From a virus, in IMG/VR virus record IMGVR_UViG_3300042367_000484, positions 1 through 48,278 of that record: 48,278 nt of DNA. The stretch is one strand, 5' to 3'. This document shows, piece by piece, positions 23,769 to 33,266 of this stretch; position 1 is the stretch's first letter; the number at the start of each line of letters is the position of its first letter. The translations under genes were made by a program, and so were the position numbers. The notes beneath the pieces are model-generated. The model searched no databases and had not been told where the DNA came from. It saw nothing but the letters and a program-made list of their open reading frames with translations.

Positions 23769-23784
23769 TGTTATAGTTTCCACT

Positions 23785-23881
23785 TGCAACATTTAACCTA
23801 AACAAAGTTGAGTATCGCTACTCAAACCTTGAAAAAGTACGGCATCATCTCGAAAGATAACGGCTGTTGCCTGCAAAGCAC
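23785..23881 (-). ncRNA. Likely right-end guide RNA (reRNA) scaffold of tnpB
   Basis: TnpB guide RNAs cover the 3' end of tnpB and extend past the element end, with the guide read from flanking DNA. Here an ATCT-TTCG-AGAT hairpin and a 7-bp TTGAGTA/TACTCAA hairpin sit inside the last coding part. The guide would begin after 23785 (minus strand AGTGGAAACTATAACAACGG). The structure is supported by hairpins at equivalent places in the solo copy. Confidence 0.55.
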
Positions 23882-24926
23882 GAAACATAATATTTCGTGC
23901 GCCGTGCCAATCTCGTGGCGCTTGATATCCACAATGAGGACACTTAAAGACCTTGGAACCACCCAGTTTTTCGTGAATATGCCCGCACTCGGGACAGGTT
24001 TTGGATGTATAGGACTCGTTGCAACGAATCACTAAAACACCATGCCTATCTGCTGTTTGCTGTAAGTGTTGAGCGAATCGGTAGTGACTCCATGTTAGGA
24101 GATTCCGTGCCGACTTCTTGTTGAGCTTCCGGGTGGATTTTGAGACCATTTGGCCCGTCTCAAAAGTGGGCAAAAAGATAAGCTTGTAATGCTGAACCAA
24201 AAACGACGCAGTTTTAGCGTGAAGGTCTTTGATTAAGTTTTTAATCCGACCCCGAAGCTGACTAGCGGCCCGACGCATTTTGTAACGCTGACGTTTTGAT
24301 TTAGACGTGCTAATCCGAGAGCAGAGTTGGTCGAGATGCAGGCAAAGACGATGTATTGCTCCGATGTCTTTCCCGCCAACTTCTAAAACAGTTTCTCCGT
24401 CATAACCAGTTAAAAAGGTTCTTACTCCTGGGTCTAGAGCAATAACTCGATTTTCACTGGTCAACTCAATTGGTTTTAACACAGGAAAGCAGGCAAACCA
24501 TTGCCGCCGAGTGTAAACCAACTGAGTGCCATAATCGCAATGAGAAGGAATTTCTTGGGGGGACGTAAAAGATAATCCTTTGGTAAGTAAAGGATACCAC
24601 GTCCCCTTTTTGAAATTTCCCGCCTTGAATTTGATGACTTGCGACGTTGCTCGGCATGACTTTAAGTGAGCGGAACCCTTGTTAGCAATAGCCTGTCGAT
24701 GCGCGTCACAAGCATCCGCAACGGCTTCTTGTAACTGGTGTCCGGGTAAGGTTTTAACCCATTCGGGCTTGGCTAAATCCCGAAGCTCGGCTTGCATATC
24801 ATAGATATTAGGTTTGGCACCTTGGCAAAGTAAATTAATCGTTTGGTTGTAGATCCATCGATAAGCTGCCAACCATTGTTTCCAGACTTGATGCAACTCC
24901 CTAGATGGAAAGACCCTGATCTTCAA
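23793..24926 (-). CDS. tnpB: TnpB RNA-guided nuclease
   Basis: About 377 residues. RuvC-I is VIALDPGVRTF (D165), RuvC-II is LIFLPTFETGQM (E256), and the zinc finger is CPECGHIH...CPHCGYQ (C311, C314, C329, C332). RuvC-III is RDWHGARN (D339). The first recognisable family sequence is VLKIRVFPSRELHQVWKQWL. No ATG is placed correctly, so I take TTG at 24926, which overlaps tnpA by 26 bases. The frame stays open further upstream through most of tnpA, but that part is not TnpB. The enzyme should cut DNA with a right-end RNA guide and promote element retention. Confidence 0.85.
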   Translation of the reverse strand: MKIRVFPSRELHQVWKQWLAAYRWIYNQTINLLCQGAKPNIYDMQAELRDLAKPEWVKTLPGHQLQEAVADACDAHRQAIANKGSAHLKSCRATSQVIKFKAGNFKKGTWYPLLTKGLSFTSPQEIPSHCDYGTQLVYTRRQWFACFPVLKPIELTSENRVIALDPGVRTFLTGYDGETVLEVGGKDIGAIHRLCLHLDQLCSRISTSKSKRQRYKMRRAASQLRGRIKNLIKDLHAKTASFLVQHYKLIFLPTFETGQMVSKSTRKLNKKSARNLLTWSHYRFAQHLQQTADRHGVLVIRCNESYTSKTCPECGHIHEKLGGSKVFKCPHCGYQAPRDWHGARNIMFRALQATAVIFRDDAVLFQGLSSDTQLCLG

Positions 24927-25527
24927 GACACTGTTGGGTTTTTCCTTCTTCGACTTGTTGCGGGGATTCTTCTTGAAGGGCTTTTTCGGTTTGCTTTTGG
25001 TATTTTCGCAATCCGTAAAGCCTAGTAGAGAAACAGTGGAGGATGGACAGAATATCTTGAACGAGTTCTTCGTGGGGAGAGAGTTTAGATTCATTGAGAA
25101 CCACGAGTTTGCACTCACTCTGCTGACAAATCCACTCAATAAGTGGGAACCCAAATCGAGCGAGTCTGTCAGGGTAGGCAACGGCAAGCAAGCCGACATC
25201 TCTTTGATATATTCGCTCCAAAATAGAGAGGAACCGCTTCCGTTTAAAATTGAGTCCGCTTCCAATTTCTGTGATAATTTCAGCCCGAGGATACTTTGAG
25301 CGTAGAAATTCAGCTTGTCTTTCGAGGTCGTCTTTTTGTCCGTGGGTGGAAACCCTTGCGTAACAGACAATGGACTTACCTTCCGACTCGTACTCTTCAA
25401 TGCAGTAACGGCGTTGCCCTCCGGGTGTTCGGATGCTTTTGACTTTTCCTTCAGCTTCCCACCTTCTGAGGGAGGAGACGCTGACCCCGAGGTTTTGGGC
25501 GGCCTCTTTCGGTGTGACATACTTCAT
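24901..25527 (-). CDS. tnpA: IS607-type serine recombinase TnpA
   Basis: A 208-residue transposase. A MerR-like helix-turn-helix (VTPKEAAQNLGVSVSSLRRW, residues 4-23) is followed by a resolvase catalytic domain with YARVSTHGQKDDLERQ (nucleophile S60) and PDRLARFGFPLIEW with the conserved arginines. The order, DNA-binding domain before catalytic domain, is typical of IS607. A C-terminal Gln/Glu-rich stretch extends past the usual end. It appears complete. Confidence 0.9.
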   Translation of the reverse strand: MKYVTPKEAAQNLGVSVSSLRRWEAEGKVKSIRTPGGQRRYCIEEYESEGKSIVCYARVSTHGQKDDLERQAEFLRSKYPRAEIITEIGSGLNFKRKRFLSILERIYQRDVGLLAVAYPDRLARFGFPLIEWICQQSECKLVVLNESKLSPHEELVQDILSILHCFSTRLYGLRKYQKQTEKALQEESPQQVEEGKTQQCLEDQGLSI

Positions 25528-25625
25528 TTGTGGTTAAAAGTTTGTATCTGACTATAGTGTAACACACTTAGCGACTTTTGGGGATGTTTAAGTAGAAAAA
25601 AGACTACTAGGAATGAGTCTCGCCG

Positions 25626-30978: not shown

Positions 30979-31773
30979 CTATTCTACAAGCTCATATGCC
31001 GCTTCTAGTTGTGATTCTAGTTGCTTTAACTTCTTCGCTATGTATAACTGACCTTTAGCCGTTATAACAGTAACGCTATCAAAGATACCAGGTTGATGGG
31101 GGCGCTCTTTGCGGAACACCTCTGCTCTGGCAGCTAATACATGTCGCTGATAGGGTAGCCGACTTGGCATCATCATAATAAAGCGAATGTCACGCAACAT
31201 ATTGAAGAACGTTGTACGACCTACGCCATAAGCTTTAGCCAAATCTCCTATTAGGACAGCATCGGCGTCGCTGACTGTCAACGTCTCTGCTAATTTAATT
31301 AGTGGGGCCTGCTCTTCTAAGGTAGCACTAACTTGCTCTAAGGTGGCATTAGTTTGTTCTAATTCTAAGGCCAGGCGCCCCGCTTCGAGTAAGGCCTCAC
31401 CATAAGTAGTAGGTATCTTGAAATCACTAACAGAATAGCGGCCAGTCTTGCGAATGGTAGGTAGTACTTCTTGTACTACCCAGTCTTGAAATAACTCTGC
31501 CTGTGGTTTGCGGCTGCTGAGTACTAATCTATATAAGCCAGATTCTGAAATGGCTGATATATATTGATTTGAGACTGACCCTAAGTATTGTTTAGGGTCA
31601 ACTAATTGTTTTTCATACACCTTTAACCGAAGTAGAGCTACTGACGTATTAGTGTGTTCGAGAACAGCGCAAACGTCGGCTGCTATAAACCAGGGCTCAT
31701 TATCAATGATTATAACGCGGATTTCTTGGTTGTTAAAGTTAAAGGTAGATAATTGAGTCTGGGTGCATCTCAT
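30979..31773 (-). CDS. BRO-type antirepressor (Bro-N plus KilAC-like domain)
   Basis: A 264-residue protein. The Bro-N domain covers about residues 1-115: IRVIIIDNEPWFIAADVCAV, then ISESGLYRLVLSSRKPQAE and WVVQEVLPTIRKTGRYS. A coiled-coil linker (LELEQTNATLEQVSATLEEQ) leads to a KilAC-like DNA-binding domain with LIGDLAKAYGVGRTTFFNML. Such proteins relieve phage repression or control late genes. Its ATG overlaps the stop of the short upstream gene (ATGA). Confidence 0.85.
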   Translation of the reverse strand: MRCTQTQLSTFNFNNQEIRVIIIDNEPWFIAADVCAVLEHTNTSVALLRLKVYEKQLVDPKQYLGSVSNQYISAISESGLYRLVLSSRKPQAELFQDWVVQEVLPTIRKTGRYSVSDFKIPTTYGEALLEAGRLALELEQTNATLEQVSATLEEQAPLIKLAETLTVSDADAVLIGDLAKAYGVGRTTFFNMLRDIRFIMMMPSRLPYQRHVLAARAEVFRKERPHQPGIFDSVTVITAKGQLYIAKKLKQLESQLEAAYELVE

Positions 31774-31955
31774 TTTTGATCCTGTTGTTGTTGATAATGA
31801 TCAAAGTTTTGGGCTAAATCTTTTGGTAGTTTTGCCCATTCTTCATTGGGAATTTTAGCAGAAAGTCGAGCCGCTAATTCCCAGATTGGTTCTGCATTAT
31901 AGTCAAATTTAATATTCGCTAAAGAGAAACTCTCGATAGGTGTTTGATTATTCAT
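31770..31955 (-). CDS. Short cyanobacterium-like protein
   Basis: A 61-residue protein. The core IWELAARLSAKIPNEEWAKL and then PKDLAQNFDHYQQQ resembles small cyanobacterial proteins that precede toxins or are found beside transposons; I cannot assign a function and an antitoxin role is only a guess. It is coupled to the antirepressor downstream. Its start is eight bases from the solo tnpB end, so it may have arrived with that element. Confidence 0.55.
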   Translation of the reverse strand: MNNQTPIESFSLANIKFDYNAEPIWELAARLSAKIPNEEWAKLPKDLAQNFDHYQQQQDQK

Positions 31956-31962
31956 ATGCTTT

Positions 31963-32059
31963 GTGCTTTGCAGGCAATGGCCTTCACCATTACTGGTGAT
32001 GCCATACCTAATATATATTTACTCGGTAATGGATAAGTTTAAGAAGGTTAAATGTTGCA
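31963..32059 (+). mobile_element. Solo right end of a tnpB element (decayed coding, retained RNA hairpins)
   Basis: This 97-base segment aligns without gaps to the last 97 bases of the IS607-type element (23785-23881, opposite strand). The first 15 bases (GTGCTTTGCAGGCAA) and the last 15 (AGGTTAAATGTTGCA) are identical and the middle is diverged. Read in the tnpB frame it gives ALQAMAF followed by TITGDAIPNIYLLGNG and stops, against ALQATAV in the intact gene. Hairpins (CACCA-TTAC-TGGTG and TTAC-TCG-GTAA) occupy the same places as different hairpins in the intact copy, suggesting the RNA fold is kept. Confidence 0.75.
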
Positions 32060-32069
32060 CAATAAGTTA

Positions 32070-32096
32070 ATAACCCCGCGTTCCGTGCGGGGTTAT
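32070..32096 (-). terminator. Strong hairpin after the phosphatase gene
   Basis: A 10-bp perfect stem (32070-32079 with 32087-32096) with a 7-base loop lies just past the stop of the phosphatase gene. The minus strand continues TAACTTATTG, a moderate T-run. It also abuts the solo tnpB end. Confidence 0.55.
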
Positions 32097-32114
32097 CGGT
32101 AACAACGTACGCGA

Positions 32115-33266
32115 CTAGGCTGAAGCCTTAACCAAATGAGGCACGTTTCTTCTAACGCTACTTGCATCCTGTATTGCAGACGCAATGGGATTAAGGCGCA
32201 TAGTATTACGCGCGGAGTTCACACTCTCTGTGGATATGAATTGACAAGTAGAGCCCATGACATGAGCTGCTGTTAGATAACAACCTAGGAAGGCACCTGT
32301 ATCAATCATGGCGCGATTATTAATTAGTAGCGGGCGCTTAGTAGTGACATGACCATTAACAACTAATGGCCAGTTAGGCTGGCCATTGAAGTACGGATAT
32401 AGTATTTCATCTACGCTGGTATTCTGCTTATTGGCCTGACCTCGAATACTGGGTAGGTGAATCTGCTTCTGTATAGAGATAGGGTCAGACTTACCCACAT
32501 ACCTATAGGCGCAAGGAGAATGGTGAACAGCAGAGGTGCGACTACGGGATACAAGGTAGGGCACACTCTCCCTATATATCTCATTGAACATATTACGCTG
32601 CATGCGATTAGCCCTAATTGTAGTGAGATAATCGAAGTAGCGCCTATTAGGCTTCTCATCATCTATGTGCTGCATAATATAGAGCTCGTGATTACCTAGT
32701 ACGACCTTGAAGTCAGGGTGACCTAGGTTAGAGTACACGAATCTAATAACGTCAGCAGAGCTGGGGCCCTTATTCACTAGGTCTCCATTGAGCACTAATT
32801 GCATGGGGTAATGAGTAATCTCATCCCCTGCAAATAAGAAGCCCGCCTTTCTAAGTAGCGCACGCAGATGGCCGTAACAACCATGAATATCCCCTACTAC
32901 TAGGGCCTCATCATTCATAGTGTAGTGAGGCACTTGCTCTACACTAAGCGCTATATCTTCCTGCCGTTCTATAAGATGACTGAGCTCAGCTCCTACGCTG
33001 CTCTCGGCATTGAATAGTATTTCTCCTACGCCGTAGTGATGGCAGCCCGCCATCATTATAACCTGATCGGCCTCTTCTTGATTCTTAATTTCTACTAGCA
33101 CGTGGTGCGCTGAGAGAGAGCTAGGATACGATATCGTATTCTCTAGTAGATGAGGGCTCTCTACATAAAGGGCCCCTACTTCCTGAGCGGCCCTCATTAA
33201 TATCTTCTTCTTTTGTGAATATGGCCTCACGACCATATATACGGTGTGAGCCTTCATGTTAATCAT
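32115..33266 (-). CDS. PPP-family metallophosphatase
   Basis: A 383-residue protein. The N-terminal 110 residues are not recognised. The catalytic part has the serine/threonine phosphatase motifs VVGDIHGCYG (about 123-132), LNGDLVNKGP (about 159-168) and VVLGNHELYIM (about 189-199), then VVNGHVTTKRP for the downstream histidine. Substrate is unknown: protein phosphatase, bis(nucleosyl)-tetraphosphatase or RNA end processing are options. The first ATG (MINMKAH) is used; the fourth codon is also ATG. Confidence 0.82.
   Translation of the reverse strand: MINMKAHTVYMVVRPYSQKKKILMRAAQEVGALYVESPHLLENTISYPSSLSAHHVLVEIKNQEEADQVIMMAGCHHYGVGEILFNAESSVGAELSHLIERQEDIALSVEQVPHYTMNDEALVVGDIHGCYGHLRALLRKAGFLFAGDEITHYPMQLVLNGDLVNKGPSSADVIRFVYSNLGHPDFKVVLGNHELYIMQHIDDEKPNRRYFDYLTTIRANRMQRNMFNEIYRESVPYLVSRSRTSAVHHSPCAYRYVGKSDPISIQKQIHLPSIRGQANKQNTSVDEILYPYFNGQPNWPLVVNGHVTTKRPLLINNRAMIDTGAFLGCYLTAAHVMGSTCQFISTESVNSARNTMRLNPIASAIQDASSVRRNVPHLVKASA

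Follow-up and report, generated by a model that had tools for sequence, protein, structure and literature searches.

A solo IS607 right end in a Microcystis phage is probably the decaying remnant of a second element lineage, and related TnpB-less elements in cyanobacteria are candidate trans-acting guides

Can the right end of a transposon, left alone in a phage genome, still work as a guide RNA, or is it debris? The question is raised by the window, the whole 48,278-nucleotide stretch of a virus record (IMGVR_UViG_3300042367_000484) analysed here, whose related phages are the Microcystis phages Ma-LMM01, MaMV-DC and MaMV-DL01. The window holds an intact IS607 element and, elsewhere, a short segment that resembles the end of one. 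A preliminary description proposed that this segment is an orphan guide RNA, loaded in trans by the intact TnpB. The features concerned are the following.

23785..25527, − strand: resident intact IS607 (tnpA 25527-24901; tnpB end 23793; right end 23785)
23784..23903, − strand: complete reRNA of the resident element (126 bits, model R1)
30979..31773, − strand: Bro-N/KilAC antirepressor gene (bro), adjoining the antitoxin-like ORF; shortened by a deletion in phages of the MaMV-DC group
31772..31954, − strand: captured Microcystis gene fragment, a 61-aa antitoxin-like ORF; its 5′ edge forms the junction at which the reRNA is cut short
31955..32059, + strand: remnant, by sequence homology the last tnpB codons of a second IS607 lineage plus the right end
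32069..32097, − strand: intrinsic-terminator-like hairpin downstream of the metallophosphatase gene

The left end of the resident element lies near 25615, just upstream of tnpA and outside 23785..25527. Its TnpB has DPG in RuvC-I (ALDPGVRTF) and, six residues ahead of the zinc finger, a glutamate (E-x6-CxxC; NESYTSKTCPEC). This fingerprint, DPG with an alternative glutamate, is that of the cyanobacterial 'pro-Fanzors' (PMC10711439), and places the resident TnpB among them. Of 63 tnpB-linked upstream stretches, 45 matched the regular expression used, nearly all of them with DPG. The left flank of the resident element is common to related contigs and the right flanks are of three kinds (L043 5143-5543; L044; L045); relative to L043, DNA beside the right end at 23785 is absent from the window, starting exactly at the element edge. 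The IS607 of Ma-LMM01 itself (gp135/136) lies outside Ma-LMM01 108000-128000.

Positions 31963-32059 were correctly described as collinear with the end of the resident element, its last 97 bases (− strand, 23881-23785), and no gap interrupts the match. The two are identical at 63/97 positions, including the first and last 15 bases, and the middle has diverged (33/67 identical). Homology begins upstream of 31963, at 31955, giving a segment of 105 bases that terminates in ..AGGTTAAATGTTGCA followed by the usual C. Although the segment is short, a chance likeness to an IS607 end is refuted: 68/104 bases match the resident end, while shuffled copies gave 28 on average and never more than 44, and a covariance-model search matched the segment with E = 6e-21 (82.6 bits, inside the range of the complete solo elements described below). 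Full-length matches also occur in many genomes. A search of 196 genomes of the host's order yielded those at about 80% identity, which are the 3′ ends of tnpB genes in other cyanobacteria; three of these ends (G137, G123 and G028) share 79-81/104 bases with the segment. Since these ends are closer than the resident one, the segment derives from a different IS607 lineage, now lost, as judged by sequence; the idea of two diverging copies of one element failed, and a recent or drifting copy of the resident IS607 was rejected on the same grounds. Nor is the segment devoid of coding sense, a reading that had missed its origin. In the window it reads as the C-terminus of TnpB (MLCALQAMAFTITGDAIPNIYLLGNG, then stop), and the phage alleles closest to the tnpB family of other cyanobacteria encode an ordinary TnpB C-terminus (MLRALQATAFTITGDAIPNIYLFGNG, then stop). 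It is thus homologous both to the TnpB C-terminus and to the IS607 right end.

What the hairpins mean depends on the family to which they belong. Alignment of 16 tnpB-linked ends revealed that the 3′ end of tnpB and the right end together encode a strongly covarying reRNA (omegaRNA). Its fold comprises four stems, a 7-bp 5′ stem, a small hairpin 1b and hairpins 2 and 3, and the 1b loop pairs with the right end in a pseudoknot. In these 16 ends 93% of cells were paired and 17/26 pairs had changed on both sides; none of 500 shuffles did as well, and all slid controls stayed at or below 47%. The pseudoknot, which was left out of the covariance model, occurs as GCAAC/GTTGC, GCAGC/GCTGC, GCTAC/GTAGC, GATTC/GAATC, GATAC/GTATC, GGAGC/GCTCC and GGTAC/GTACC. 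A pseudoknot of this sort is reported to be necessary for IS607 TnpB activity (PMC10711439). No Rfam match to this RNA was found at the gathering threshold in eight sources, including the window, or at the E-value threshold in 13 solo-bearing loci.

The RNA structure noticed at the outset is therefore real at the family level, as the covariation demonstrates, and the hairpins of the segment are genuine inherited guide-RNA architecture. The inference of compensatory divergence is another matter. Because both lineages compared each carried tnpB, different hairpins at the same place reflect divergence inherited between lineages, and so provide no evidence of selection on the solo copy. The segment retains the following elements.

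31970..31981, + strand: hairpin 1b (GCAG GCAA TGGC), from the family alignment; the window allele has lost one pair (A.G) and has G.U in place of another
31985..31998, + strand: hairpin 2 (CACCA TTAC TGGTG), intact
32019..32036, + strand: hairpin 3 in the family register (TTACTC GGTAAT GGATAA), with one C.A mismatch
32054..32058, + strand: 3′ strand of the pseudoknot (GTTGC), partner GCAAT in the 1b loop

The first hairpin originally compared, CACCA/TGGTG against ATCT/AGAT, is in register and is a true family feature. The second was not: TTAC/GTAA is out of register with TTGAGTA/TACTCAA, and the family register is TTACTC...GGATAA with its C.A mismatch. The pseudoknot of the window allele is formed by four Watson-Crick pairs and one G.U.

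What the segment lacks is the 5′ stem. The junction at 31955/31956 lies in the loop of that stem, so that its 5′ arm is gone, replaced by host DNA: the junction coincides with the end of a match of 95.5% identity (31779-31956) to a Microcystis chromosomal gene (L046). The best model alignment recovered 5/7 pairs of the stem, only 2 of them Watson-Crick, and the region folds at −2.2 kcal/mol, compared with −11.1 for the resident element and −6.1 to −10.4 for complete solos. Nothing resembling a left end was found within 4 kb, and the segment thus is not a complete, mobile IS607. The host copy of the captured gene is the C-terminal part of an HsdS-like protein and stands beside a PIN-domain toxin (L046 1073-3159; PIN and Methylase_S domains in the neighbours). 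The PIN toxin is absent from the phage beside the antitoxin-like ORF, and this 61-aa ORF, upstream of the Bro-N/KilAC antirepressor, may represent an orphan antitoxin taken up from the host. The possibility that the segment belongs to a composite IS607 with bro as its cargo was considered and rejected, there being no left end and bro persisting in part where the segment is lost.

Comparison among phages provided a second view of the segment, which at least 12 viral contigs share with Ma-LMM01 and MaMV-DL01. Seven of its 105 sites vary and none of the changes is compensatory. Variation at 31979 breaks one pair of hairpin 1b. Position 32022 alternates between paired and unpaired, the T allele (L004/L015/L016) pairing in hairpin 3. 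In L005/L006/L010/L017, G32057 is replaced by A, breaking a pseudoknot pair that is invariant across the 16 tnpB-linked ends. In MaMV-DC, CH01, CH02 and DH01 a deletion that starts within bro, with short homology at its junction, has left only the last ~18 bases of the segment and has taken the rest of it, the antitoxin-like ORF and the 5′ half of bro together. The segment is less variable than third codon positions of bro (7/105 versus 58/263, p = 0.0003) and does not differ from those of the adjacent captured gene (6/60, p = 0.55). Because the captured gene is also less variable than bro (p = 0.047), the simplest reading suggests that the segment is young.

Searches for a working guide were negative. 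The target that the segment RNA would address is AATAAGTTAATAACCCC. In viral contigs the proposed guide matched nothing beyond its own locus; in 12 Microcystis genomes, where the reversed control had 68 matches at 3 mismatches, the guide had 69 at that distance and none closer. No + strand promoter was found in 31700-32200, and the terminator-like hairpin would absorb the 3′ half of that guide. The loop and arm of that hairpin at 32080-32087 are inverted between phages (CCCCGCGTTCCGTGCGGGG versus CCCCGCACGGAACGCGGGG). RNA of such IS607 elements was found in 3 of the 12 Microcystis genomes; no tnpB-linked copy of it was found in Ma-LMM01, MaMV-DL01 or contigs G250 and G251, all of which have the segment.

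We conclude, with a probability of roughly 0.86, that the segment is the decaying 3′ remnant of a pro-Fanzor-type IS607 from a lineage other than the resident one. Homology, lineage, the junction with host DNA, loss of the 5′ stem, lack of a recognisable left end and deletion in four phage isolates are all observed. An IS607 of that other lineage would have inserted beside the metallophosphatase gene; a fragment of a host antitoxin gene would then have joined it within the last tnpB codons, with loss of nearly all of the element. The 105 bases left over would hold the right end, the codons for the TnpB C-terminus and the greater part of the reRNA core. Such a remnant is probably neither transcribed nor loaded, and linkage to the antitoxin-like and bro genes, rather than RNA function, presumably accounts for its persistence. 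Several findings weigh against the remnant reading: the part kept (1b, pseudoknot, hairpins 2 and 3, tail) is about what suffices in ISDra2 (PMC10097598), the pseudoknot is formed in the window allele, the score reaches 82.6 bits, variability is below that of bro, and the segment has persisted in phages.

The same findings bear on the original proposal, according to which a pro-Fanzor TnpB, resident or of the host, loads a transcript of the segment in trans, its guide being the adjoining phage sequence. In favour of it, the segment still has the pseudoknot and the greater part of the reRNA core, the 5′ region is dispensable in ISDra2 (PMC10097598), orphan reRNA elements do exist in cyanobacteria, this phage has a TnpB of the family and the element RNA occurs in some host genomes. 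An initial view that the missing 5′ stem is fatal to function was accordingly softened, ISDra2 tolerating loss of its 5′ region (PMC10097598). However, that stem is paired in nearly all orphan elements (99% of cells), there is no promoter and no target beyond chance, a terminator stem lies inside the guide, the pseudoknot is broken in one set of phage contigs and the whole segment deleted in another, and Ma-LMM01 and MaMV-DL01 yielded no tnpB-linked copy of the RNA. We consider the proposal improbable for the phage segment; residual activity in trans is not nil, because the segment keeps the core that suffices in ISDra2. Just as slim are the odds of a broader version, in which the segment is a trimmed, still loadable trans-acting reRNA and one TnpB serves the many solo guides of a wider TnpB-less IS607 population. 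A present use of another kind, compatible with a remnant origin, is somewhat easier to entertain but still unlikely: the segment may be kept as the promoter or 5′ UTR region of the − strand antitoxin-like/bro pair. It lies directly upstream of the start codon of the pair (31954), and in the MaMV-DC group one deletion has removed the segment, the ORF and the 5′ half of bro jointly. Against this, no site of sigma-70 type, the only type searched, was found on the − strand in 31955-32059, and the sole − strand sigma-70-like site (31736-31709) is within the bro ORF.

The idea of orphan guides, unfavoured for the phage segment by its 5′ stem, promoter, target and alleles, did hold elsewhere to the extent that tnpB-less solos keeping the RNA exist in cyanobacterial chromosomes. 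Model R1 matched in 56 of 245 genomes of the host's order. Among 116 distinct hits fetched, 69 had tnpB upstream and 46 did not. In eight of these 46 a short piece of tnpB survives, and these are remnants, as the phage segment is. Most of the other 38 are not remnants, having exact ends shared across different flanks and lengths of 319-443 nt; one element of 332-333 nt, for example, is present in eleven copies in five genomes (including G171). The TnpB-less elements listed here have a complete covarying reRNA, measure 319-443 nt where ends were mapped and, in several cases, have a promoter-like site.

L197, L198, L202, L199, L200, L204-L206, L210, L211, L214
L128, L129, L166, L192, L187, L188, L190, L193, L186, L208, L167, L215, L220

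Their 5′ stem is entirely rewritten yet paired (GCTTAACTTTCGAGTTAAGC, GCAATGCTTTTGGCATTGC, GCTAATCCTTAAAGGATTAGC). Across 19 solos, 93% of cells pair and 19/26 pairs have changed on both sides, figures that lean towards structure for the nested stems, to which the alignment was fitted, though not for the pseudoknot, one pair of which alternates between A-U and G-C. A sigma-70-like promoter site (≥10/12 matches) was present in 16/38 solos and 0/65 tnpB-linked controls; many of the promoter-bearing solos are copies of one element, and the counts are not treated as independent. A tnpB-linked copy was also found in 14 of 17 solo-bearing genomes. These elements are candidates for trans-acting guides of pro-Fanzor TnpB.

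The leaders between promoter and reRNA are conserved, about 150 nt upstream of the reRNA, and fall into three sequence types, A (L197, L129, L213), B (L186, L208, L215, L220, L128) and C (L166, L188, L167), without an Rfam match; no fold common to them was convincing. The predicted promoters lie about 190 nt upstream of the 5′ stem. In L128, a group II intron domain V (RF00029, 57 bits) occupies 2632-2710, inside or just upstream of the solo reRNA element. Genome G110 has three short tnpB remnants (L136, L138 and L172), each with a whole reRNA, those of L136 and L138 being ~134-148 nt; truncation points seem clustered just upstream of the 5′ stem.

How do these elements and the segment relate to known systems? 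The resident tnpB has the DPG and the glutamate six residues before the zinc finger of the pro-Fanzor IS607 of cyanobacteria, and shares with them a 3′ reRNA whose apical loop forms a pseudoknot with nucleotides before the guide (PMC10711439); the segment differs in having no tnpA, no left end, no 5′ reRNA stem and hardly any of tnpB. The omegaRNA of ISDra2 TnpB similarly has a stem loop pseudoknotted with the 3′ end and a trimmable 5′ region (PMC10097598), but ISDra2 belongs to the IS200/IS605 family and has another sequence, and the 5′ stem is strongly conserved in the cyanobacterial family. IS607 TnpB guided by RAGATH-18 likewise has a structured 3′ reRNA with pseudoknots (PMC11061315), whereas the cyanobacterial RNA has no Rfam (RAGATH-18) match. 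The TnpB-less solos (such as L197, L128, L166 and L188) are, like the segment, solo right ends with reRNA and no tnpB. Unlike it, they have the whole 5′ stem in rewritten form; among those examined, most possess a left end and dispersed copies, and several a sigma-70-like promoter. The segment, compared with an orphan reRNA element such as L197, has none of these. IStrons without ORFs are known in Bacillus (PMC4227781). We found no description of TnpB-less IS607 elements retaining reRNA in the literature searched, which excluded subscription papers, and claim no priority.

Taken together, these results indicate that an IS607 remnant owes its hairpins to inherited guide-RNA architecture. Divergence between two elements must therefore not be taken for selection acting on the solo. 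The complete orphan elements provide a better test of the original hypothesis than the phage segment, and matter more than it does. Solos without tnpA and tnpB, with a fully covarying reRNA and pseudoknot and in several cases a promoter, would naturally serve in trans as guides for pro-Fanzor TnpB, the group considered closest among bacteria to the eukaryotic Fanzors. Through them it can be tested whether a single RNA-guided nuclease gives protection to a whole family of non-autonomous elements.
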